A stretch of 64,000 nucleotides of DNA from Bacteroidota bacterium. Its GTDB lineage: Bacteria; Bacteroidota; Bacteroidia; Cytophagales; Cyclobacteriaceae. The notes below the pieces were generated by a model. The model was not told the origin of the DNA, ran no database searches, and saw only the letters and a list, made by a program, of their open reading frames with translations. Of the stretch, positions 38,330-51,619 are shown one piece after another. The position numbers and the translations under genes are program-made. The stretch spans positions 62,001 to 126,000 of the forward strand of contig JAFDZA010000013.1 of the NCBI GenBank assembly GCA_018267135.1, written 5' to 3'. Every line of letters starts with the position of its first letter. Positions within the stretch are counted from its first letter, which is position 1.

Positions 38330-40630
38330 TTACAATAGTTTAAACTCAGCCTTCTTTACATCGCGCGAGTTTCCACCTACAAAAATTTCAAATACGCCCG
38401 GCTCGCTTCCTAAACTTAAATCGGATTTATAAAAAAACAAATCTTTATTTTTTAAAGTAAAATGAACGGTTTGGGTTTCACCTGCTTTAAGTATCACTTT
38501 TTTAAATCCCTTCAGTTCTTTTACCGGGCGTGTTATGGACCCTATTACATCGTGAAGGTAGAGTTGCACTACCTCTGTTCCCTCTTTTTGGCCCAGGTTG
38601 GTTACTTCTATGGATACGGTAATGGAATCGGATGCCGTCATTTCCGGCTTACTCAACTTTACTTCGCCATAGCTAAAATCGGTATAGCTCAGGCCATACC
38701 CAAACGGATAGACGGGATCATTAGAAACATCTAAATAATTGGACTTAAATTTTTGAAACCATTTGGCATCGCCCAAAGGGCGGCCTGTATTTTTTTGAGC
38801 ATAGTACATCGGTACCTGGCCCACGTTTTGCGGAAAGGTAGTAGTCAGTTTGCCGGAGGGGTTTATCTCACCAAATAATACATCGGCAATAGCATCGCCC
38901 GTTTCACTGCCGCCAAACCAAACATCTAAAATAGCCGGCACATTCTCGTCTTCCCATTTTAATGTCATTGGGCGGCCATTAAACAAAAGCAACACTACCG
39001 GTTTGCCGGTTTGAAGTAATGCCTTCAGTAATTCTTTTTGTGTATCGGGAATACCGATATCCGATCGGCTGGACGACTCGCCCGTCATCTCGGCCGACTC
39101 GCCCAGTGCGGCCACCACCACATCAGCCTGTCTGGCCATGCGTAGCGCTTCGTCTCGCAGTTCGGCAGCACTTCGCTTGTCGCGGTGCAGTGTTTTACCA
39201 AAAGGGGTAGCTATTTCCTCGAGGTGCGCATCTTCGTATAAATTAGAGCCTTTCGCATAAATAATTTTTGCTTTTCCGGCCGTAGCGGTTTCCAAGCCTT
39301 TCCTTACCGTAATGGATTTAGAAAAATGGGCGGCTACACTCCACGTACCCGTCATGTTTTCTGCCGCATCGGCCAGCGGGCCAATCAATGCAATGGTGCC
39401 TTGTTTTTTAAGCGGCAGTAAATGGTTTTGGTTTTTAAGCAGCACAAAACTTTGGGCGGCTACCTTTCGCGAAAAGGCGCGGTTGGCATCGGTAAAAATT
39501 TCTGTTTTAGCCCGTTCCTCCTGGCAATACCGATACGGATCATCTAACAACCCTAATTTGTATTTTGCCTGCAACACTCTTTTGCAGGCTTCATTAATTT
39601 GTTGCTCGGTTATCTTTCCTTCCTTCAATGAATTTGAGAGCGTGGTTAAAAATCCTTCGCTTACCATATCCATATCTAAACCGGCATCTAGCGCACGGGC
39701 CGAAACCGTTGGTAAATCGCCTATGCCATGCGGCACCATTTCGCTTACACTTGTATAATCTGAAACCAATAAACCACCAAAGCTCCATTGCTGGCGAAGT
39801 ACATCAGAAAGCAACCATTTGTTGGCCGTGGCCGGCACGCCATCTATTTCATTAAAGGAAGTCATCACGCTCCCCACACCGGCATTTACCGCTGCCTGAA
39901 AGGGGGGGAAATACTCGTTGTACATGCGCACATGGCTCATGTCGGTGGTGTTGTAATCGCGGCCCGCTTCGGCTGCTCCATACAGGGCATAATGTTTTAC
40001 ACAGGCCATCACTGTATTGTTGGCTGATAGATCGTTTCCCTGATAGCCCCGCACCATAGCTTCGGCAATGCGTGCGCCCAAATACGGGTCCTCCCCGCTG
40101 CCTTCGGCAATGCGCCCCCAGCGGGCATCGCGGGCAATGTCTACCATAGGAGAATAAGCCCAGTTGATGCCATCTGCACTGGCCTCGGTAGCGGCCATGC
40201 GGGCGGTTTGCCGGATCAAATCCATATCCCAACTGCAACTTAACCCGAGCGGGATGGGGAAAATAGTTTCGTATCCGTGAATAACATCCATACCAAAGAG
40301 CAACGGAATTTTAAGACGGCTTTTTTCTACCGCAATACGCTGCATTTCGCGCACGTTTGCTACGCCTTTAATGTTGAACAAGCCGCCTACTTTGCCCTGC
40401 TCAATTTTTTTTCCGATATCGGAACTGGCTGCTTCACCTGTTTTGAAATAGCCGGCCGAAGGGAGATTAAGCTGTCCAATCTTTTCTTCTATCGTCATCA
40501 GGCGCATGAGCGAATCTACTTTTTTATCCATACGCGACTGAGGTTGTTGCTTACCGCAAGAAACAACCATCAGCACAGAAATGAGGATTAAAATATTTTT
40601 TTGAATAGGTTGGTAAAGTGGGTGGTTCAT
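38330..40630 (-). CDS. bglX: GH3 beta-glucosidase lipoprotein (BglX-like)
   Basis: A 766-residue exported GH3 enzyme that removes glucose from the non-reducing end of beta-glucans or their oligosaccharides. Domain order is a signal with lipobox (MVVSC, Cys25), the GH3 N-terminal barrel with nucleophile Asp291 in LLVSDYTS, the GH3 C-terminal alpha/beta domain, and a fibronectin-III-like tail. The ATG at 40630 is preferred; a TTG at 40654 overlapping the previous stop would add eight residues. It directly follows the glycoamylase-family gene, so it probably finishes off the products of that enzyme in the periplasm. Confidence 0.93.
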   Translation of the reverse strand: MNHPLYQPIQKNILILISVLMVVSCGKQQPQSRMDKKVDSLMRLMTIEEKIGQLNLPSAGYFKTGEAASSDIGKKIEQGKVGGLFNIKGVANVREMQRIAVEKSRLKIPLLFGMDVIHGYETIFPIPLGLSCSWDMDLIRQTARMAATEASADGINWAYSPMVDIARDARWGRIAEGSGEDPYLGARIAEAMVRGYQGNDLSANNTVMACVKHYALYGAAEAGRDYNTTDMSHVRMYNEYFPPFQAAVNAGVGSVMTSFNEIDGVPATANKWLLSDVLRQQWSFGGLLVSDYTSVSEMVPHGIGDLPTVSARALDAGLDMDMVSEGFLTTLSNSLKEGKITEQQINEACKRVLQAKYKLGLLDDPYRYCQEERAKTEIFTDANRAFSRKVAAQSFVLLKNQNHLLPLKKQGTIALIGPLADAAENMTGTWSVAAHFSKSITVRKGLETATAGKAKIIYAKGSNLYEDAHLEEIATPFGKTLHRDKRSAAELRDEALRMARQADVVVAALGESAEMTGESSSRSDIGIPDTQKELLKALLQTGKPVVLLLFNGRPMTLKWEDENVPAILDVWFGGSETGDAIADVLFGEINPSGKLTTTFPQNVGQVPMYYAQKNTGRPLGDAKWFQKFKSNYLDVSNDPVYPFGYGLSYTDFSYGEVKLSKPEMTASDSITVSIEVTNLGQKEGTEVVQLYLHDVIGSITRPVKELKGFKKVILKAGETQTVHFTLKNKDLFFYKSDLSLGSEPGVFEIFVGGNSRDVKKAEFKLL

Positions 40631-40650
40631 AGGTTTTGAAATAGTGTGAG

Positions 40651-42297
40651 TCAATTAAACCCAAGTTTCGTTTTGGCTGCCTGCACCTCCGGGGCGGTCT
40701 TAAATAATTTCCACAACAAACCGGTTCGGTAGTTTTCCAGCATCACCACAATGGGCCCCTGATCAATGGCCAAGGTAGAGGTGGCTGTCCAGCCTTGGGT
40801 AAGGTTGATGGCATCATAAAAACCATATTGTCCCCAGAGCCGGTCGCCCAGTTGATAGTAGAAAAAACGAATGGCTTTCATAGACTGTGCCGGTGTATAG
40901 GGCATGGAAGAAATAGCAGCCGTAGGCGAAATGGTACCGTTATCGTTGGTAGGCGATTGTGCGCCATAGCCCCATGGGTTATCGCTGGCGGTAATACCCC
41001 AACAACTGTCGGAATACAGTGCGTAGTTACCGGGGTTTTTTACGCAGTAATCATGATTGATCAGCGATTGGTTTACGTTCTGTGTCCAGTAGTTTACATT
41101 GAGATACGTATCCGTTACGTGCGGGTCAAACCCCAAAAAAGAATATTGAGTAAAAAACAACGGCCCTCCGTATGGCTCGCCCAGCGGCAACACATGCCCC
41201 AAGTACGAGTTGCCATTGAGGATGTTTTTATTTTGTGCCCACCCTTGCTGGTAAACTTCTACCGGGATAGAATGAGTAGCCGAGCCGGCTGCCAGCAAAT
41301 AGGTAATGAGGGTTTCGTTATACCCGCGCGCGGGCACGTTCACAGCAAAACCTGCCGTGGGCGACCAGTTCCAATACAGTACATTTTCGGCCGGTGTTTT
41401 TCTAAACCAGTTCCAATCCACCGCCTGGTATAATTGGGTGATGCGGTTAATCAGGTTATTGCCTACCGTATCGGCCGGTGTAAGATACTGCCTCAGGCAA
41501 AGCAGCCCGTGTATCATAAACGAAGTTTCCACAATGTCTGCTCCATTGTCGTTCGGGCTGAACGCAATGGTTTTGCCCGTAGTGCCGTCTGACCAGTGCG
41601 GCCACGCGCCATGAAAGCGGTCGGCTTTTTCAAGATAGGTAACTATTTTTTTAGCCTGTGCCAGGCCATTGGCTCGCGAAATAAACCCACGGTTCATTCC
41701 TACAATAAGTGCCATTACGCCAAAGCCGCTTCCACCCATGGTTACAGTATTGCCCGATGAGTTTCGCTCGCGCGCCATGCCGCTTACCGGCTCGGCAAAG
41801 TCGTAAAAATATTTTAGGGTTTGTTGTTGCACGAGGGTAACCAGTGCCGTATCGGATATTACAGGAAATTTAGGAACCGGGTTTACACCGGTCATCAGTT
41901 TAATTGTTATGCCAGAGGTACCAAATGTTTTTTTGGTGGCAGAGGTAAGTTGTGGCGACACCAGCAGACTGTAGCCGGTTAAATAATTTAATGGATTAAC
42001 GGGTTGAACCACCAAACTGCTATCATGATGGGTAAATGAAATAGTAACAGGAACGACTCCGTTATTGAGCAGAATTGAATTTTGAGCCGATGTATGATCA
42101 ATCGGTTCTGAAAAACCCAATACGATCTGCGGAGTAATGGATGTACCGGAATAGCTGTAGCTAAACGGGCGGCCATCCAGCGAAACAGATAATAAGGAAA
42201 TATTTTTGGGACCAGGCGAAACTTTAGTAGAATCGTTTTTGCAGGAAAGAAGAAATGAAAGAAAAGGAATAATGAAAAAGAGAAACTTTAAATTCAT
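40651..42297 (-). CDS. Glycoamylase-family (PF10091/GH144-like) lipoprotein with Big_5 domain
   Basis: A 548-residue surface or periplasmic lipoprotein (lipobox SFLLSC, Cys19). Residues ~30-135 form a Big_5-type immunoglobulin-like domain (IVLGFSEPIDHTSA). Residues ~150-548 are the (alpha/alpha)6-barrel of the glycoamylase family, with GGSGFGVMALIVGMNRGF, WPHWSDG, and ending in the LAIDQGPIVVMLENYRTGL block. Characterised PF10091 members of family GH144 are endo-beta-1,2-glucanases or sophorohydrolases. It follows a terminator after the LamG gene and leads into the GH3 gene. Confidence 0.88.
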   Translation of the reverse strand: MNLKFLFFIIPFLSFLLSCKNDSTKVSPGPKNISLLSVSLDGRPFSYSYSGTSITPQIVLGFSEPIDHTSAQNSILLNNGVVPVTISFTHHDSSLVVQPVNPLNYLTGYSLLVSPQLTSATKKTFGTSGITIKLMTGVNPVPKFPVISDTALVTLVQQQTLKYFYDFAEPVSGMARERNSSGNTVTMGGSGFGVMALIVGMNRGFISRANGLAQAKKIVTYLEKADRFHGAWPHWSDGTTGKTIAFSPNDNGADIVETSFMIHGLLCLRQYLTPADTVGNNLINRITQLYQAVDWNWFRKTPAENVLYWNWSPTAGFAVNVPARGYNETLITYLLAAGSATHSIPVEVYQQGWAQNKNILNGNSYLGHVLPLGEPYGGPLFFTQYSFLGFDPHVTDTYLNVNYWTQNVNQSLINHDYCVKNPGNYALYSDSCWGITASDNPWGYGAQSPTNDNGTISPTAAISSMPYTPAQSMKAIRFFYYQLGDRLWGQYGFYDAINLTQGWTATSTLAIDQGPIVVMLENYRTGLLWKLFKTAPEVQAAKTKLGFN

Positions 42298-42397: not shown

Positions 42398-43306
42398 CTA
42401 TCTCCCGGCAGAACCGAGTTGAAATAAAGAACCAACTTCAAGCAAGCTTAATGCTTTCCCATAAACTCTGATATCATCCAATGTGCCTTTTAATTTGCCT
42501 TGCCAAACCTGAGCCGATGAGTTTGTATATCCTGACTTAGCATTTGGAATACGGCCAATAACTGCCAATGTGGGTGGCGCAATGATTATCGGGGTTGGTG
42601 AGGAGAATCTTTGCTGCCAGTTTGTATTAGAAACCAGAACACCATTAGCATATATTACAAAAGTAGAGGCCGTTTGATCGTACACACACACATAGTGAAT
42701 CCATGGGTTGCCGGTATTAAGAACGGGAACCCATTTTTTTCCTAAATCGCCATACGATCCATTTGCTATATTATCCTGGTGTGAAATTGTTCCATTAACA
42801 AAAGTTGCAAAGGCAGGATGCAAAGGCAATGTATCGTTGGTTGATGGTCTCCAACCGGTTTCAATTCCCATATTCAGAGGTCCGGCATTCCAATCAGTTT
42901 GATTCGCTACGCTTTGGGTAAGGGCAAATAACGAAGTATAAGTCTTTTTGTTATTGGTAATATCTTTAAACCAAAGACTCACACTAAAACTAGGCATCGC
43001 ATTAGCTGAACCAAGCGTAGTTAGAGCAGGGTACGTTAGGTAGCCAGAGTCAATCGCCAATGCCTGACCAATTCTCCCTGTGGTATATGAAGTAGCCGTA
43101 TCCTTGGAAGGGGCTATTCCGGAAACCACTTCGTTTTTAGTATTATCAAAAGTCCAGTGCGCTAACAAATTTGCTGCTCCCACATCATTAGAGGAGTTAT
43201 ACCCATTAATGGGGGGCAGTGAGTTATTACTTTTCGAGCACTGAAAAAGCGATAGCGCAATAAAGGCGCTAAAGCCCATAAACAGATAATTGATTGTTTT
43301 TTTCAT
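42398..43306 (-). CDS. LamG-domain surface lipoprotein
   Basis: A 302-residue lipoprotein (lipobox SLFQC, Cys23). From about residue 50 it is a concanavalin-like LamG domain: LLAHWTFDNTKNE at the start, SFSVSLWFKD, WIHYVCVYDQTASTFVIYANG in the middle and GTLDDIRVYGKAL near the end, all classic LamG strand motifs. It lies right after susD and in the same transcript, the usual place of surface glycan-binding proteins in PULs, so binding of the target polysaccharide is inferred. Confidence 0.87.
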   Translation of the reverse strand: MKKTINYLFMGFSAFIALSLFQCSKSNNSLPPINGYNSSNDVGAANLLAHWTFDNTKNEVVSGIAPSKDTATSYTTGRIGQALAIDSGYLTYPALTTLGSANAMPSFSVSLWFKDITNNKKTYTSLFALTQSVANQTDWNAGPLNMGIETGWRPSTNDTLPLHPAFATFVNGTISHQDNIANGSYGDLGKKWVPVLNTGNPWIHYVCVYDQTASTFVIYANGVLVSNTNWQQRFSSPTPIIIAPPTLAVIGRIPNAKSGYTNSSAQVWQGKLKGTLDDIRVYGKALSLLEVGSLFQLGSAGR

Positions 43307-43432: not shown

Positions 43433-44959
43433 TCAATACCCCGGGTTTTGAGTCAGTTTTCCGTTGCTCAATAATATCTGGGTAGCCGGTATGGGCAATA
43501 ATTCGTGCGTGCCTGCCACAAATCCTTTGCTGCCCAGCACTGAAGCGGCATCGCCCCAGCGCACCAAATCCCAAAAGCGATCTTCTTCCATGGCCAACTC
43601 CACATGGCGCTCTTGTTTTAGATCGGCCAGCGTTACGCTGCCTTTGGGCAATAGCCCCGCCCGCACACGCACCAGGTTTACCGGAGTGGCGGCATCGCCT
43701 CCGGTATGGAGAGCTGCCTCGGCATTCATTAACAACACATCGGCATAGCGCAACACCGGGATGTTCTTTGGGCGGTCTTTATCGCCCGGAGTGGCATAGG
43801 TTTCTTTGGAAGGCACTACGCTGCTGGTATAGGCTTTGTAGTTGTAATATAGATTTTGTACAGAATCGGAACTGGGAATACGGAAGCCATCCCATAAAAC
43901 CGTGCCTTTGTGCAGCCCTGAATTATCTATAAAAATAATGGTGGCATTTTTTCGCAGGTCGCCAGTTTCATACGTATTGATGAGAGCGGTAGAGGGGTTG
44001 TTAAATCCCCAACCCAAATCGTTCCATCCGCCCATGCCTCCTACCCGCGGTCCTTGTGATACTGTCCAGTTGGCAATACCAAAATTAGAATTGTTGAATT
44101 TGCCTGTTTCAATTTCAAAAATAGATTCACTGCAATTGTTTCCGGCTTGTTTAAACTGTAACGAATAATCTTGCACTAACTGATACTGACCGGATGTAAT
44201 AACCTGATTGGTGAGCGCCTTTACACTGTCCCATTGGGCTAAGTATAAGTACACTTTGGCTAATAATGATTGAGCCGCGCCTTTGGTGGCGTGACCGGTG
44301 CCGGCCTGGGCTTTGGAGGGTAAGTTGGCAATGGCATAATGTAAATCGCGGATGATGCTGTCGTACACCACAGTGGCTGCTGTACGGGTTTGATAAACCG
44401 GGTTGGTGTTGGCATCGTGCGCATCTTTAGGTACCTGCAGCACGAGCGGCACCCCACCAAAAAAACGGACGAGATTAAAATAAAAATAGCCTCTGAGGAA
44501 TTTTACTTCTCCAACTAATATTTTTTTGGTGGCCATGGGCAGCGGAGCCGGAGCCAGTGCTTTCAGCGCCTGGTTGGCCGCACCAATACTGTTGTAGTGC
44601 CCGCTCCACAGGGTTCCGCAAAACGGGTTGGTAGAGGTTAACGTAAAATTATCAAACTGCCCGGCCGTTGTAGCCTGATCGGCTGCATAGCTTCCCTTGT
44701 CAGCATCGTCTGATGCAATAGAGGTGGCCGATAAAAAGGCGAAGCCGTGCACATCGCCATTGCCCCACGAGTCGCCCTGAAGCAAACTGCTGTACACACC
44801 CGTTACCAGATCTTGTGCCAGATTAGGGTTTGAGGTGGTGGTTTCTCCGCCCTGCACTTTTACGTCTAAAAATTCTTTGCTGCATGAAACAATGCTCAGG
44901 CTGAAGAACACTATCACTACCAGGTTGGTTATCTTGCTCATCTTGTTATTTGCTTTCAT
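43433..44959 (-). CDS. susD: SusD/RagB family glycan-binding lipoprotein
   Basis: A 508-residue surface lipoprotein that caps the SusC channel and binds the oligosaccharide. Signal and lipobox (LSIVSCSKEF, Cys27), SusD-like N-terminal domain with the tetratricopeptide-like helices (FLRGYFYFNLVRFFGGVPLV), and the C-terminal RagB/SusD region ending in DRFWDLVRWGDA. The ATG at 44941 (MSKITN) is an alternative start six codons on. It follows susC by 12 bases. The name indicates family, not starch specificity. Confidence 0.95.
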   Translation of the reverse strand: MKANNKMSKITNLVVIVFFSLSIVSCSKEFLDVKVQGGETTTSNPNLAQDLVTGVYSSLLQGDSWGNGDVHGFAFLSATSIASDDADKGSYAADQATTAGQFDNFTLTSTNPFCGTLWSGHYNSIGAANQALKALAPAPLPMATKKILVGEVKFLRGYFYFNLVRFFGGVPLVLQVPKDAHDANTNPVYQTRTAATVVYDSIIRDLHYAIANLPSKAQAGTGHATKGAAQSLLAKVYLYLAQWDSVKALTNQVITSGQYQLVQDYSLQFKQAGNNCSESIFEIETGKFNNSNFGIANWTVSQGPRVGGMGGWNDLGWGFNNPSTALINTYETGDLRKNATIIFIDNSGLHKGTVLWDGFRIPSSDSVQNLYYNYKAYTSSVVPSKETYATPGDKDRPKNIPVLRYADVLLMNAEAALHTGGDAATPVNLVRVRAGLLPKGSVTLADLKQERHVELAMEEDRFWDLVRWGDAASVLGSKGFVAGTHELLPIPATQILLSNGKLTQNPGY

Positions 44960-44971
44960 AAACTCTTACCG

Positions 44972-47900
44972 TTAAAATCCAAGACTGATACCTGCTGCAA
45001 TAGTTCGGGTAGTGGGGTAAGTACTTAACTCAATCCCCGAGTTGGTGGGGCCACCCGGAAGTTCAGAAGTAAACCCGCTGTACTTTTTATAGGTGTATGG
45101 GTTTTGTGAAACCACATATACCCGCAGCGTAGAAATTTTAAGTCGTTGCAGCGTTTCGGAAGAAAACGTATAACCAATGGTAACATTGTTGATCCGCACA
45201 AACGACCCCGACTCTACAAAGTAAGTGGAGGCGGGCAGGTTTCCACCATTGGCAGCCGGTTGGGTCTGTGTATGGTTAACGGGGGTCCACCGATTATAGA
45301 CCAGCGCCTTCTCGATGTTGTCGGTACCGGCATACCGTGCGCCACGTTTTCCGTTATACACCTGGTTGCCGGTATTTCCGTATATCGTTAAACTAAAATC
45401 CCAGTTTTTGTATTTGATACTTCCATTAATTCCGTAATACGCTTTCGGTTGATACGAGCCTACAAACACACGGTCTTTGTTAATATCTATCGGTCCGCTG
45501 CCTTTGGCATCTAAATATTTAAAGTCTCCGGCATGGGCGCTCGGCTGAATCTGAACCCCGTTTTTATCTACGTAGCCGGCTGCTTCCGCATCCGAATTAA
45601 ATACTCCGGTTTGCTTCAATACATAAAAACTTCCTACCGGATGGCCAATGTCGGTATTGGTTACCGCCCCCTGGTTGCCTACGTAGCCATCTAAAATATT
45701 CTGACCCCCGTTAAGCGCTGTAACCTGGTTGGTGTTAAGAGTGATGTTACCGCCAATAGAATAGGAAAGATTTGTATTGATTGCATCCCTCCAGTTTAAG
45801 GCAATTTCTACTCCTTTATTTTGAATGCTGGCCGCATTGGTTATGATCAGCCCATCGGCATCGCCCACCGTGCGGGGAATCGGTACGCTAATCAAAGCAT
45901 TGTGCACCGTTTTGTTGTAATAATTTATTTCGCCCGATAATTTTGAATGCAGCATAGAAAACTCGGTGGCCACATCATACTCATCTGTAATCTCCCAGGT
46001 AATATTAGGGTCTATGATCTGGTTAATCTGTGCACCATTGGTGGCAGTCGATCCGCTTCCCAAAAACGGGTAGGCTTGATTGAGGGCTACCGTCTGCGTA
46101 TAAGCATTAGTAGGTATCTGGTCGTTTCCCACTCTCCCGTACGATGCTCTGAGTTTTAGCAAGTCAAACCAAGTTTGTCCTTCCATAAATTTTTCATTGC
46201 TAAGAACCCACGCAGCCCCCACCGATGGGTAGTTTTGCCACCGGTTTTGTATCGGTAATCGTGAGCTTCCATCGCGTCTGAGTGTGGCCGTTAGTAAATA
46301 GCGGCCGTCATAGCTGTAGTTTAATCTTCCCAAATACGAATTTCTGGCCCACATATCACCCCCTCCATCGTTTTGAGAAGTGTTGGCATCGCCTACGCCT
46401 ATATACCAAAGATTAGGATCGGCCGGCACACTTTTGCGAAACGCTGAAACAAACGTGAGACGATATTTTTCGGCTGTTGTTCCTACTAAAAAAGTAAACC
46501 CATGTTTACCCACATTTTTAGAGAAGGTAGCCGTATTATCCCAAACCCATCTAAACGACTGGGTGTTTTTCACATTTAAACTGCTGAGAGGATTTTGTTG
46601 GTTGCCACCGGGTGTAACATAGGTATTATTATCGGCTATAATCTGGTAATTATACAACCGGTTTAATGAGTTGCGCCAATCGGCACCGAAAGATGTTTTT
46701 AATGTTAGCCACACTACCGGTTTGTACTCTAAGTAAGAGGAACCTTGCAATCTGTTTTCAAGCACCTTTACGCTGTTGCTGTTAATATCTAACAGCGGGT
46801 TGCCTACGTTTTGGTAGATGGAAGAGTTTCCATACCGGCCATTTACTATACTGGGTATGATGGGGGCCGCCCGATATGCATCGTTATACACGCTACCTAC
46901 ATTGCCATTCGGGTCAATATCTAAATTGCCAAATCCGTTTTGGTTGGCCGAGCTGGCAAATGAACTTTGAATGCCCAATTTTAGATTATCGGTCAATTTG
47001 TAGTCGCTGTTCAGGCGCATGGTTAGCCGCTTGAAATTGTTATTGATCACAATTCCATTATCATCCATGTATCCAACATTAAACAAAAAGGTAGATTTAT
47101 CGGCTCCGCCCGAAAACGACAGATTATGGGTTTGTTCGAGTGCATTTCTAAGAATAACACTATACCAATCGGTATTGTAGGTAGAGGCAGGTGGAATTAA
47201 ACCGGAGGCCGCCTGAACGTAGTTATTATACTCGGCCGAGTTAGCCATAGGTACCAGATTAGCTGCTTGCCGGAATCCAACATTGTTATTATAGCTCACT
47301 TTTATTTTACCCGATACTCCCTTTCGGGTGGTAATAATAATTACACCATTGGCACCTCTGGATCCGTAGATGGCGGCTGCCGAAGCATCTTTAAGGATAT
47401 TCATATCCACAATGTCGGCTGTGTTTACATTACTGATGTCGTCTGTTAAAACACCATCCACTACAAATAAAGCAGTGGTGGCACCCAAGGCCGTACTCAC
47501 TCCGCGCAACCTGATTTGGGGCGATGTACCCGGTTGGCCGCTGGTAATAATCTGAACCCCCGCCACCTTTCCTTGTATGGCCTGGGCGGCAGTAAGCACA
47601 GGTTGCTTAATCATCTCTTCTCCTTTAACATTAGCCACGGCTCCGGTTATATCGCTTTTCTTTTGAACTCCATATCCCACCACTACTACTTCCTGCAATT
47701 GCGATGCTTCTGATTCTAAAACAATAGATAAGGAGGTTTGACTGCCAATCGTTATGGTTTGTGTTTTATACCCGATAAATGATACCGTTAGTGTGTTGTC
47801 GGTTGCCTCCAAATCCAATTTAAAGTTGCCATTGGCGTCTGTTGTTGCGCCCCGGGTAGTACCTTGTATTACGACATTCACACCGGGTAAACTTTGGCCA

Positions 47901-48004
47901 TCTTCTTTGGCAACCACTTTACCGGAAATCATCCTGTTCTGAGCCAGCAGGTTTAAGGCGCAGAATGGAATAAATAAAAATAAAATCAGTAGCTTTCTAA
48001 CCAT
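44972..48004 (-). CDS. susC: SusC/RagA family TonB-dependent transporter
   Basis: A 1010-residue outer-membrane transporter that imports oligosaccharides with energy from TonB. After the signal peptide comes a carboxypeptidase-regulatory-like domain (about residues 25-100), the plug with GVQIITSGQPGTSPQIRLRG and the SusC signature RGANGVIIITTRKG (about 217-230), then the 22-strand barrel ending in AAGISLGF with the terminal Phe. There is no N-terminal anti-sigma-interacting STN domain, so regulation is not by the sigma/anti-sigma route, consistent with the membrane regulator encoded just upstream. Confidence 0.97.
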   Translation of the reverse strand: MVRKLLILFLFIPFCALNLLAQNRMISGKVVAKEDGQSLPGVNVVIQGTTRGATTDANGNFKLDLEATDNTLTVSFIGYKTQTITIGSQTSLSIVLESEASQLQEVVVVGYGVQKKSDITGAVANVKGEEMIKQPVLTAAQAIQGKVAGVQIITSGQPGTSPQIRLRGVSTALGATTALFVVDGVLTDDISNVNTADIVDMNILKDASAAAIYGSRGANGVIIITTRKGVSGKIKVSYNNNVGFRQAANLVPMANSAEYNNYVQAASGLIPPASTYNTDWYSVILRNALEQTHNLSFSGGADKSTFLFNVGYMDDNGIVINNNFKRLTMRLNSDYKLTDNLKLGIQSSFASSANQNGFGNLDIDPNGNVGSVYNDAYRAAPIIPSIVNGRYGNSSIYQNVGNPLLDINSNSVKVLENRLQGSSYLEYKPVVWLTLKTSFGADWRNSLNRLYNYQIIADNNTYVTPGGNQQNPLSSLNVKNTQSFRWVWDNTATFSKNVGKHGFTFLVGTTAEKYRLTFVSAFRKSVPADPNLWYIGVGDANTSQNDGGGDMWARNSYLGRLNYSYDGRYLLTATLRRDGSSRLPIQNRWQNYPSVGAAWVLSNEKFMEGQTWFDLLKLRASYGRVGNDQIPTNAYTQTVALNQAYPFLGSGSTATNGAQINQIIDPNITWEITDEYDVATEFSMLHSKLSGEINYYNKTVHNALISVPIPRTVGDADGLIITNAASIQNKGVEIALNWRDAINTNLSYSIGGNITLNTNQVTALNGGQNILDGYVGNQGAVTNTDIGHPVGSFYVLKQTGVFNSDAEAAGYVDKNGVQIQPSAHAGDFKYLDAKGSGPIDINKDRVFVGSYQPKAYYGINGSIKYKNWDFSLTIYGNTGNQVYNGKRGARYAGTDNIEKALVYNRWTPVNHTQTQPAANGGNLPASTYFVESGSFVRINNVTIGYTFSSETLQRLKISTLRVYVVSQNPYTYKKYSGFTSELPGGPTNSGIELSTYPTTRTIAAGISLGF

Positions 48005-48257
48005 ATTAGATTTTGATTTTCAGATAGTTATAGGAAAAAACACCACTTAATAGCAGCAATCTGTAAAATTTTATATTGATAAAGTTATCAATGAGCAAAT
48101 TCTATATGAAATATTTTTACTGAAAAGGCTGATAAAAAGGAAATAATGGCATATCAAGTGTTTGGTTTATTTTACACTTAAAAAACATTAATTCAATCGT
48201 TATAGTAGCAAAATGATGTCTAATTGTATTTGCGCTTTACACAATAACAACATCCCT
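48005..48257. other. Promoter region of the susC operon
   Basis: 253 bases between the regulator stop and the susC start. AT-rich, with stops in all frames. It includes a perfect 18-bp palindrome (separate entry). I found no exact TAnnTTTG element; TAGAATTTG on the minus strand (about 48098-48106) has one extra spacer base. The long gap inside a same-strand cluster argues for a regulated promoter here. Confidence 0.55.
48075..48092. promoter_or_regulatory. Perfect 18-bp palindrome upstream of susC
   Basis: ATTGATAA-AG-TTATCAAT: 8-bp arms and a 2-base centre, 71 bases upstream of the susC start codon. It is the most symmetric element in the 253-base gap. Its placement close to the likely promoter makes it a candidate operator for the PUL regulator encoded next door. 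No T-run follows on the minus strand, so a terminator for the regulator gene is less likely. Confidence 0.5.
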
Positions 48258-50147
48258 TTAAGCAGGTGTTTGATGTTTTCTCCTAGTACTTCTATTTTTA
48301 ATGGGAATATCCACCACTAAATCTTCCCACGAGGTTTGCGGCTTATCCCGTTTTTCAAAAAAATGTATCCGTTCGCTCACTTTCTTCCGAAAAGCCCAAA
48401 TTGTACTTAGCCTCATCTCCAAAATGGTAGAAAGTTTCTCCAGCGTAAAATGGTTCTTATGGGTGTAGATAACATAGGTTAAATAAAATGCCTTGGCTAT
48501 TGGAAATTTAATAGCTTGAAATAAAGTGCCGGCCGTAATAGATTCGTTATAACCACACTTGGTGCATCGTCTGGAAAATTTCTGTGTTCCAGGCGAGTAT
48601 TTAGCATTACTGCATTTCAGGCACTGAAACTCGGCTGTTTCTTTTCTTTTTTCAAGAAAACGGTAGCAGGCCATTTCATCGGGGTAAAGCGTAGAAAATT
48701 CTTCAAAAGTCATCAACTCTTCGTGCATTCGTTCTTCTAATACCTCTTTTACTTTATTTTTTAGTTTCCAGTTATCTAAATCAAGTATAGAATTGATCTG
48801 GTTAATTTCGTGCGCTTGCCGGTCTAGTTTGGCATTGCTGTGCATTAATTCTTCATTCATTTTTCCTAATTCCTGCGTGCGCTCATTTACTTTCTCTTCT
48901 AACTCGCGATTTACTTTTTCTTTGAGTGCAATATTGGTTTGCTGTTGCCGGATTACGCGCTTCAGTGCGCGGTCGCGGTTATCTTTTAATATCCGGATCC
49001 GATCGCCCAAGGCAACTGTTAGAAAAAGCATTTCTAAAACAAAACTTAAATGAAGGCTGTAATGGGTTAGAATCGTAAAAGGAAAAAGATTAAAGTACAC
49101 TAAGGTGCGGATAAAAAAACCGGTGAATAGTAACCCATACGAAATCACAAAAAAACGAGCCGGCCGATACCCTCCCCTCCATACATTAATGCCGGTAAAA
49201 AAAATCAGCGATAAGGGAATAATGTCTAACCCGCGGAACGTAAACATCTTGGGTAAAAAAATCAGTGTAAACACAAACCAAACCGAGCGGGCTATAATCA
49301 TATATTTAAGTGCTCGGTCAAGCCTGGGAGAATTCGCTCGTGTGCTTAAAAACCTACGGGTAAAAACGAGCGACCAAAAAATGAGAAGATACAGTGAAAC
49401 CCCTACAGCCCAATCGTTCCATGCCGGATGAGTCGGCCATAAGTACTGAAACCCTATCCCATCATAACTCATGGCATATAAGGCCACGCAAAGAATATAA
49501 AAGATATAATAGATAAACTTAACTTCTTTGATGGCGAGATAAACCAAAAAATTATAGAGTGCAATAATGACAATCATACCATAAAACATGCCGTACAAAT
49601 AGTATTCATTCAAGGCATAATAGATAAACCGGTCAACCGAACGAAGGGCGATGCGCACATCAGCAAACTCATGCGAACGAACTTTAAAATAATACGGGCG
49701 GGTTACCCGCTCATCCCTATTTAATAATATCTCAAAGTTTTTGTGATGGATGCTCCGCTCAGAAAAACGCTGGTGATCGCCCATCTTCATCAGGTGATAG
49801 CTGCCGTCTGGCTGCGGCACGTAGGCTTCAAGACTGTCAATCGTTTGATCATAAAATTCGAGTAGCCAAATTTTTTTTGATTGAGAATTAGGTTGAATTG
49901 GCAAGCGGATCCAGTACGAGGCGTTATTTTTAAAATCAATATTCTGGTAACTCCTGTTTAATCTGAATTTTTCTGCCCACTCATCGCTGATTATTTTTTG
50001 AAAAGGAGTGTGGTTCGATACATCCACAAAGTAGGTCAGCTCATACGGCATAAAAACTCTTTCGCTCAATGAGTCGTTAATTTTAATTTGAGCCAGAGCC
50101 GCTACGCGCGAGGTAAGCAATAAAACCAATATAGCAGCACGTATCAT
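48258..50147 (-). CDS. 7TMR-DISM receptor fused to a transposase-type (IS1595) zinc ribbon
   Basis: A 629-residue membrane regulator. Order of parts: signal peptide (1-19), periplasmic 7TMR-DISMED2-like beta domain (about 25-170, with ASYWIRLPI), seven helices (about 183-385), a coiled coil (about 385-480), then a zinc ribbon with Cys509, Cys512, Cys528 and Cys531, and a helical part (SITAGTLFQAIKFPIAKAFY and STIWAFRKKVSERI) to about 595. The last two blocks match the N-terminal DNA-binding region of IS1595-family transposases; the DDE catalytic core is absent. No kinase, cyclase or classical helix-turn-helix is present. Encoded directly upstream of susC, it probably controls the PUL. Confidence 0.85.
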   Translation of the reverse strand: MIRAAILVLLLTSRVAALAQIKINDSLSERVFMPYELTYFVDVSNHTPFQKIISDEWAEKFRLNRSYQNIDFKNNASYWIRLPIQPNSQSKKIWLLEFYDQTIDSLEAYVPQPDGSYHLMKMGDHQRFSERSIHHKNFEILLNRDERVTRPYYFKVRSHEFADVRIALRSVDRFIYYALNEYYLYGMFYGMIVIIALYNFLVYLAIKEVKFIYYIFYILCVALYAMSYDGIGFQYLWPTHPAWNDWAVGVSLYLLIFWSLVFTRRFLSTRANSPRLDRALKYMIIARSVWFVFTLIFLPKMFTFRGLDIIPLSLIFFTGINVWRGGYRPARFFVISYGLLFTGFFIRTLVYFNLFPFTILTHYSLHLSFVLEMLFLTVALGDRIRILKDNRDRALKRVIRQQQTNIALKEKVNRELEEKVNERTQELGKMNEELMHSNAKLDRQAHEINQINSILDLDNWKLKNKVKEVLEERMHEELMTFEEFSTLYPDEMACYRFLEKRKETAEFQCLKCSNAKYSPGTQKFSRRCTKCGYNESITAGTLFQAIKFPIAKAFYLTYVIYTHKNHFTLEKLSTILEMRLSTIWAFRKKVSERIHFFEKRDKPQTSWEDLVVDIPIKNRSTRRKHQTPA

Positions 50148-50233
50148 AATGGGTCTTTAAAGGTAAACTATTTCATATTGAAATGAGAACAGTACGACAC
50201 CAAATCATTACTTTAGAGCAGAATGAAAACATT

Positions 50234-51619
50234 ATGAAGAAACTAATCTTACCCACGCTGATTCTTTTTGTTTTTTCGTGTACACAGCCCAAAGAGATGC
50301 CATCTGCCGCCTGGAGCTACCGTGACCACGCTTCGTTTCTCGACACCCTTTCGCACCGAACTTTTAATTTTTTTTGGGATCTGGCAGACTCTACTACCGG
50401 CAACCAGCCCGACCGCTGGCCCGGCAAAAGTTTTTCGAGTATTGCCGCTACCGGTTTTGGGCTAACCGCCTACCTGATCGGTGTAGAACAAAAATATATT
50501 ACGCGAGCGCAAGCGGCCGAACGCGTTCTGAAAACTCTCCGTTTTTTAAACCAAGCTCCCAAAGGAGATAAGACCGAAGGCATAACCGGCTATAAAGGTT
50601 TCTTCTATCATTTCATCGATATGAAGACCGGGTTCCGTTTTAAAGAAGTAGAATTATCAACCGTTGATACCGGTTTGCTGATGGCCGGTATATTGGCCTG
50701 CCAAACATTTTTTGATCTGGAAAATGAATCAGAAAAAGAAATTCGTTCCTTGGCCGATTCACTTTTTCTGGCCGTAGATTGGAACTGGGCCATGAACGGA
50801 AACAAAACCATGAGCATGGGCTGGCATCCGGAGCACGGCTTTATTGATGCCTCCTGGCGCGGCTACAATGAAGGAATGATTTTGTACATCATGGGCTTAG
50901 GTACTCCATCTCACCCTATACCGGCCTCCAGCTGGGGGGCTTGGACATCAACTTACCAATGGGGAAATTATTTCGGTTATGAACATGTAAACTTTGGGCC
51001 CTTATTCGGGCATCAATACTCACATTGCTGGATAGATTTTCGTGGGCTACAAGACTCTTACATGAAGAATAAGAAAATAGATTATTTCGAAAACTCGCGC
51101 AGGGCTACTTTAGCTAACCGCGCCTATTGTATAACCAATAGCGGAGGGTGGAAAGGCTATGGAGAAAATAACTGGGGGCTTACCGCCTGCGATGGGCCGG
51201 GCAATGCCAATAAAAATAATCCCAACATGGCTTTTATGGACTACACCGCCCGGGGTGCTGCTCAATGGTATGTGCACGATGACGGCACGATTGCCCCCAC
51301 CGCTGCCGGAGGCTCTATTCCATTTGCCCCGCAAGAGTGTATTACCGCCTTACACACCATGAAGCAAAATTTTGGAGAAAAAATTTTTCAACAATACGGT
51401 TTTAAAGATGCTTTCAACTTAACCATCACATATCAAAACGGAACAGCCGGATGGTTCGATCAAGACTATTTAGGCATCGACCAAGGAGCCATTCTTATTC
51501 AACTTGAAAATTACAGATCAGATTTTGTCTGGAACCTGATGAAGAAAAATAGATACATCGTTTCGGGATTAAAAAAAGCAGGGTTTAGCGGAGGATGGAT
51601 TGATAACGTAGCCAACTAA
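50234..51619 (+). CDS. Second glycoamylase-family (PF10091/GH144-like) lipoprotein
   Basis: A 461-residue lipoprotein (lipobox FVFSC, Cys16) consisting of the catalytic (alpha/alpha)6 barrel only, with no Ig-like domain. Family blocks: FNFFWDLADSTTGNQPDRWP (about 46-65), IAATGFGLTAYLIGVE, VDTGLLMAGIL, and the closing LGIDQGAILIQLENYRSD. It is a paralogue of the gene at 40651, from which it differs in domain make-up. I used the ATG at 50234; the frame opens earlier at 50183, but only the later start gives a clean signal peptide. It is divergent from the membrane regulator, so the 86-base gap may be co-regulated. Confidence 0.9.
   Translation: MKKLILPTLILFVFSCTQPKEMPSAAWSYRDHASFLDTLSHRTFNFFWDLADSTTGNQPDRWPGKSFSSIAATGFGLTAYLIGVEQKYITRAQAAERVLKTLRFLNQAPKGDKTEGITGYKGFFYHFIDMKTGFRFKEVELSTVDTGLLMAGILACQTFFDLENESEKEIRSLADSLFLAVDWNWAMNGNKTMSMGWHPEHGFIDASWRGYNEGMILYIMGLGTPSHPIPASSWGAWTSTYQWGNYFGYEHVNFGPLFGHQYSHCWIDFRGLQDSYMKNKKIDYFENSRRATLANRAYCITNSGGWKGYGENNWGLTACDGPGNANKNNPNMAFMDYTARGAAQWYVHDDGTIAPTAAGGSIPFAPQECITALHTMKQNFGEKIFQQYGFKDAFNLTITYQNGTAGWFDQDYLGIDQGAILIQLENYRSDFVWNLMKKNRYIVSGLKKAGFSGGWIDNVAN

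Follow-up and report, generated by a model that had tools for sequence, protein, structure and literature searches.

The locus considered here raises the question of what a membrane sensor protein may do beside a susC operon when the output domain of its receptor class is missing. Receptors of the 7TMR-DISM type usually end in a histidine kinase, a GGDEF or an HTH output. The first-pass annotation of the window (the whole stretch of 64,000 nucleotides that was analysed) had instead proposed a one-component, membrane-bound transcription factor containing a captured transposase part, and this proposal is supported by the match to IS1595 profiles, the missing DDE core and the adjacency to susC. 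In our analysis, the protein is very probably a one-component transcription factor that is bound to the membrane and serves PULs, in this case probably one for beta-1,2-glucan; its ribbon-HTH would act on paired repeats and thereby switch the susC operon, activation being the likelier outcome.

The 629-residue frame is real and is read from the minus strand (Table 1). The DISMED2-like domain and the seven helices noted earlier are both recognised by Pfam above the cut-offs, as PF07696 (3.8e-23, 82 bits against a cut-off of 22) and PF07695 (1.6e-45, 156 bits against a cut-off of 29), and the signal peptide is assigned from hydropathy and by eye only. No histidine kinase, receiver or AraC domain was found with Pfam and NCBIfam, in keeping with the annotated lack of the usual outputs. 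In the full-length AlphaFold2 model (44 alignment rows, pLDDT 85) seven long helices are seen, and the last of them runs unbroken over residues 359-476 (about 118 residues) from the membrane into the coil, as expected for the coiled coil that had been described. Among PDB entries this model matches the periplasmic domain of RetS best (3jyb, E 3.8e-4). The C-terminal part modelled alone is folded into ribbon strands and three helices (pLDDT 89, pTM 0.81). In the alignment of 44 full-length relatives, cysteines 509, 512, 528 and 531 are indeed at those residues and are invariant, and the coil residues are near-invariant. The tryptophan of the C-terminal tail is likewise near-invariant, and this tail is present in nearly all regulators, in the place of the DDE core.

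Table 1. Features of the regulator locus, in window positions
Feature	Position	Strand	Evidence or remark
GH3 glycosidase	38330..40654	-	
PF10091 glycoamylase/GH144-type glycosidase	40651..42297	-	
LamG-like (Laminin_G_3) PUL protein	42398..43306	-	
susD	43433..44959	-	Pfam
susC, directly downstream of regulator	44972..48004	-	Pfam; TIGR04056 828 bits
Candidate operator site 2, TGTTTTTTAAGTGTAAA	48171..48187	-	65 bp from site 1
Candidate operator site 1, TGTTGTTATTGTGTAAA	48236..48252	-	
Putative regulator gene, 7TMR-DISM sensor with IS1595-type ribbon-HTH output	48258..50147	-	629 aa
W-containing C-terminal tail SWEDLV, residues 606-611 (W607)	48315..48332	-	Alignment of relatives
Helix-turn-helix of IS1595 transposases, residues 550-599	48351..48500	-	NF033547 match 547-594, model helices, hhalign
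IS1595-type zinc ribbon, residues 489-533	48549..48683	-	PF12760 in relatives, hhalign
Signalling coiled coil, residues 384-476	48720..48998	-	Model helix, conservation in 44 relatives
Seven-transmembrane domain, residues 181-383	48999..49607	-	Pfam PF07695, model helices
7TMR-DISMED2 periplasmic sensor domain, residues 37-168	49644..50039	-	Pfam PF07696
Second PF10091/GH144-type glycosidase, divergent from regulator	50183..51619	+	

The kinship of the C-terminus is established by the relatives more than by the window protein alone, which matches PF12760 at E 0.32 (11.4-15.2 bits, under the cut-off of 25.4) and the NCBIfam model of IS1595 transposases weakly, at E 0.0042, on the helices following the ribbon. 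The C-termini of its relatives match PF12760 in 17 of 17 cases, the best at 9.3e-12 and some above the cut-off. When a profile of 71 regulator C-termini was compared by hhalign with 13 IS1595-type transposases, the match reached 99.9% (E 8.3e-36) over 143 columns and stopped at the first DDE motif; since it spans all these columns up to the DDE start, the homologous region is the ribbon together with the HTH. Two proteins of about 315 residues, encoded by genome G052 from the same order, align with residues 482-595 at 1e-11 to 1e-12; both carry the VDEF catalytic motif, and the PF12762 DDE domain was recognised by Pfam in L039. In the window protein no PF12762 core was detected by Pfam and only about 29 residues follow the HTH, so that the regulators end where catalysis would begin and the claimed lack of space for a DDE core is borne out. 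As judged from these comparisons, the C-terminus is a complete IS1595 DNA-binding region (ribbon and HTH, about residues 475-600) without the catalytic part. The first-pass annotation was thus right about the transposase origin (profile-profile E 8e-36) and drew the captured part too small, as the HTH is to be included. PDB sequence searches with the C-terminal domain gave nothing significant, and Foldseek with its model gave no match below 0.001, the best having E 0.44 and weak HTH resemblances, such as to sigma region 4, being all that was seen; no solved structure of an IS1595 DNA-binding domain was found by these two routes.

A domain derived from a transposase may also be what is left of a decaying IS1595 insertion that hit a 7TM-DISM gene at its 3' end, or may result from misassembly. 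This explanation is ruled out by the conservation of the fusion and carries practically no weight with us. The identical junction is found in 100 fusions across many families, a new C-terminal tail is shared, and no PF12760 match at E <= 0.001 is present anywhere in the own genome, where the domain is single copy, unlike a mobile element. Comparison with a 90%-identical orthologue gave dN 0.055 and dS 0.71 for the C-terminal domain (dN/dS about 0.08); the domain is under purifying selection.

The extent of the family became visible with whole-genome searches, which were far better than a single scan of genome contigs that returned only one close relative. The domain is carried by 172 of the 390 sampled genomes of the host order; strong matches there are mostly ORFs 600-880 aa long, and in some families a genome can hold up to about 11 matches. 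In a sample of the phylum 57 of 395 genomes have it, all 11 ORFs of 620-718 aa being candidate or confirmed fusions and the remaining matches being either short proteins or transposases with a length near 300 aa. A tree was built from 82 ribbon domains; in it all fusions cluster together (SH-aLRT 94), nested in a wider group with transposases among its members, and the fusion cluster also takes in a Reg_prop protein and a solo protein. The inner branching order is unsure because the tree has only 116 columns. One capture event probably gave rise to all the fusions. The solo protein (L112:1197-1649, genome G217) is a ribbon-HTH of 151 aa with the regulator-type W tail, an output without a sensor.

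The Reg_prop protein (L190:7291-10293, genome G514) has 1001 aa, with seven Reg_prop repeats and Y_Y_Y, one likely transmembrane helix as seen by eye, and then the coil, ribbon-HTH and tail of the 7TM regulators. Its ribbon groups with that of a 7TM regulator encoded in the same genome (SH-aLRT 85). From its domain order, this protein is an HTCS-type sensor with a captured transposase domain as its predicted output. We lean towards the wider view that a single IS1595 capture gave rise, in this order, to a large class of membrane one-component regulators that is still being shuffled, in which kinase and AraC outputs were replaced on 7TM as well as HTCS-type sensors, and whose operators, paired direct repeats that follow the recognition helix, can be read from sequence.

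The conservation of the coil also bears on how the output may work. Membrane-bound factors are often activated by proteolytic release, and the ribbon-HTH could similarly be freed to work as a soluble factor. We regard this as quite unlikely here: no stretch is better conserved against the orthologue than the coil that joins membrane and ribbon (96% identical), this coil is retained even on the Reg_prop sensor, and no adjoining protease gene was noticed. Such conservation of the coil, and its retention on a different sensor, suggest mechanical signalling rather than a cleavable linker, and the output is accordingly taken below as tethered.

The neighbourhood indicates what may be controlled. 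A susC gene on the same strand lies within 0.9 kb downstream in 60 of 100 distinct fusions, as the proposed co-occurrence with PULs would require, and within 8 kb in three more. By group, adjacency is seen in 21/22 fusions of the genus, 15/20 of other genera of the family, 13/14 of f13, 4/4 of f11 and 6/10 of f19, and in none of the readable fusions of f16, f20, f5, f9 and f74. Ribbon-less sister 7TM-DISM proteins in the same locus set adjoin susC in 0 of 9 cases (Fisher p 0.0005 against the fusions, the nine controls being few and related genomes not being independent). Chance adjacency should be rare, as the genome has about 13 SusC matches over the cut-off. Some fusions sit outside PULs, next to a GH9 cellulase, a GH3, an outer-membrane efflux gene or other envelope genes, so the family is not exclusively of the PUL type, and not every member would be a PUL regulator. 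No other regulator was recognised in the PUL of the window. GH144 enzymes are beta-1,2-glucanases, and in Bacteroides xylanisolvens one of them is encoded within a susC/susD cluster (PMC11739564). The PF10091 proteins of the window are probably of this family, and beta-1,2-glucan would then be the substrate.

The DNA between regulator and susC (48005-48257), which had been named as the candidate target, contains a conserved candidate direct-repeat pair that in the genus occurs only beside this regulator. The pair follows the pattern TGTTTTTnnnGYGTAAA, on the same strand and 65-66 bp apart. In a motif-free scan of repeat lags (20-139) over 56 such gaps, the top lags were 66, 65 and 67. With up to 3 mismatches the double pattern occurs once in the own genome, in the regulator-susC gap, and nine times in 59 congeneric genomes (five and four at spacings of 65 and 66), with 0 for the reversed-pattern control. 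All nine lie just behind the regulator gene; six are in regulator-susC gaps already read, and the remaining three are likewise beside the regulator gene, in genomes unused in motif discovery. This co-occurrence could come from linkage alone, because the operator adjoins the regulator gene. Single sites are hardly enriched in the own genome (19 against 14 for the reversed control), so no wider regulon is claimed. About one third of the gaps of family f1 have no clear repeat pair, and the 65-66 bp spacing did not extend to families f13, f11 and f19. A palindrome at the presumed promoter of the window (TTGATAA-CT-TTATCAA) was dismissed, as it is not conserved in relatives. Between the candidate operator and the terminal inverted repeats of related transposases (L039, L040, L041, L086, L130) no resemblance was seen by eye.

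A second clade of regulators (clade B: L033, L034, L127, L162-L165 and L176) differs from clade A in its recognition helix. Its gaps contain CGTATYA, exactly two per gap in 8/8 (16 forward and 0 reverse, 0.4 expected), at spacings of 76-80 or 90-91 bp. As clade B has both another helix and another repeat pair, the operator sequence appears to follow the regulator clade. This covariation also bears on the idea that the C-terminal domain has lost DNA binding and instead acts on another regulator, as a zinc module that binds protein or RNA, for zinc ribbons have many uses. With the HTH and its recognition helix kept, clade-specific repeats co-varying with clade-specific helices, and no second regulator in the PUL to act upon, we find such a role improbable. 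Several of the gaps of L162-L165, L033 and L127 share AACTATCTATTTTTCAG near the second site, possibly a longer operator or a promoter part. In the f13 gaps (L166-L169, L173) a shared TAAGTGTATA element precedes the predicted susC start by 315-397 bp, and a 24-bp repeat lag is also seen, perhaps the f13 operator.

The placement of the sites bears on the direction of control. The same protein may be a repressor that is bound to DNA without ligand and lets go once the glycan is sensed, as InsA of IS1, its closest functional analogue, which has a zinc finger and HTH but lacks DDE, binds DNA and represses transcription (PMC12428005). In most relatives 131-184 bp separate the proximal site from the predicted susC ATG downstream of it, and paired upstream sites six turns apart are commoner for activators, the sites being placed here relative to the ATG. 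Repression is for these reasons unlikely, if still to be taken seriously, and activation is the likelier direction because the candidate sites lie well upstream of susC. In the activating regulator that we favour, DISMED2 would sense a periplasmic glycan fragment, in this case probably one derived from beta-1,2-glucan, and the 7TM bundle and coiled coil would relay the signal as a change within a dimer. The cytoplasmic ribbon-HTH units would then bind both direct repeats, which are separated by about six turns of DNA, the dimer either binding each repeat or spanning both, and this binding would alter transcription of susC-susD-LamG-GH144-GH3.

The proposed regulator combines features of several known systems. 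It shares signal peptide, DISMED2, 7TM and coiled coil with the 7TMR-DISM receptors of the RetS/LadS type, and its model matches the RetS periplasmic domain, whereas their usual output is replaced by the IS1595 ribbon-HTH. The hybrid two-component systems of PULs (Reg_prop/Y_Y_Y, kinase, AraC) are likewise single-polypeptide membrane sensors beside susC/susD, and their Reg_prop/Y_Y_Y sensor is also present in L190; the regulator chain, on the other hand, has no kinase, receiver or AraC domain. With IS1595-family transposases (PF12760 and PF12762) the homology covers their N-terminal ribbon and HTH throughout, and the regulator differs in having no DDE domain, in carrying the ribbon-HTH at the C-terminus of a receptor and in its new conserved W tail. 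ToxR/CadC-type regulators also combine a sensor, a membrane anchor and a DNA-binding domain in a single chain, and tethered action would be common to both; their domains are unrelated and they have one transmembrane helix instead of seven. InsA, which is likened here by function, shows a transposase zinc finger and HTH part working alone as a transcriptional regulator, and differs in being soluble, in being part of the IS itself and in regulating its own element (PMC12428005).

No description of a 7TM-IS1595 ribbon fusion was found in the open-access literature searched, in line with the earlier statement that no described PUL regulator of this type is known, and we consider a membrane one-component regulator with an output domain of this origin to be new within that literature. 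The architecture could show automatically in profile databases, since at least one relative (L157) passes both Pfam cut-offs. In eukaryotes, host regulators are documented to have captured transposase DNA-binding domains, and the literature found was mostly eukaryotic. The present family would be a bacterial example of such capture on a large scale, with a single origin and many descendants, a clear task and an operator that can be tested. It offers a candidate regulator for many PULs that possibly have no neighbouring HTCS, ECF sigma or AraC gene, and a means of predicting the glycan loci under control in a genome together with the DNA sites involved. As the operator pairs differ between clades, the rules by which an IS1595 domain recognises DNA can be tested directly.

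Further IS1595-type proteins were met in the survey. One genome (G219) holds about 11 paralogues of about 315 aa (L101-L111), and outside the fusion no ribbon-HTH comes closer to the regulators than theirs (130-150 bits). Those printed have the PF12762 domain without the VDEF motif (e.g. ICEMGVN, TCELGIN), and with this motif lost they are probably transposase-like proteins that are catalytically dead and have been maintained in many copies. Conserved stand-alone IS1595 ribbon proteins of about 154 aa without a DDE core (L117:8336-8797, L118:8438-8899, L119:8334-8837, L131:9416-9880, L132:9671-10279) belong to one genus (g33) of the same class and may represent a second, independent domestication. 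At two loci (L179:6235-8250, L182:11754-13730) a 7TM-DISM protein adjoins a 7TM-DISM ribbon regulator, and the neighbour at L179 has a histidine-kinase ATPase domain, so that cross-talk between kinase and captured-transposase outputs is possible.
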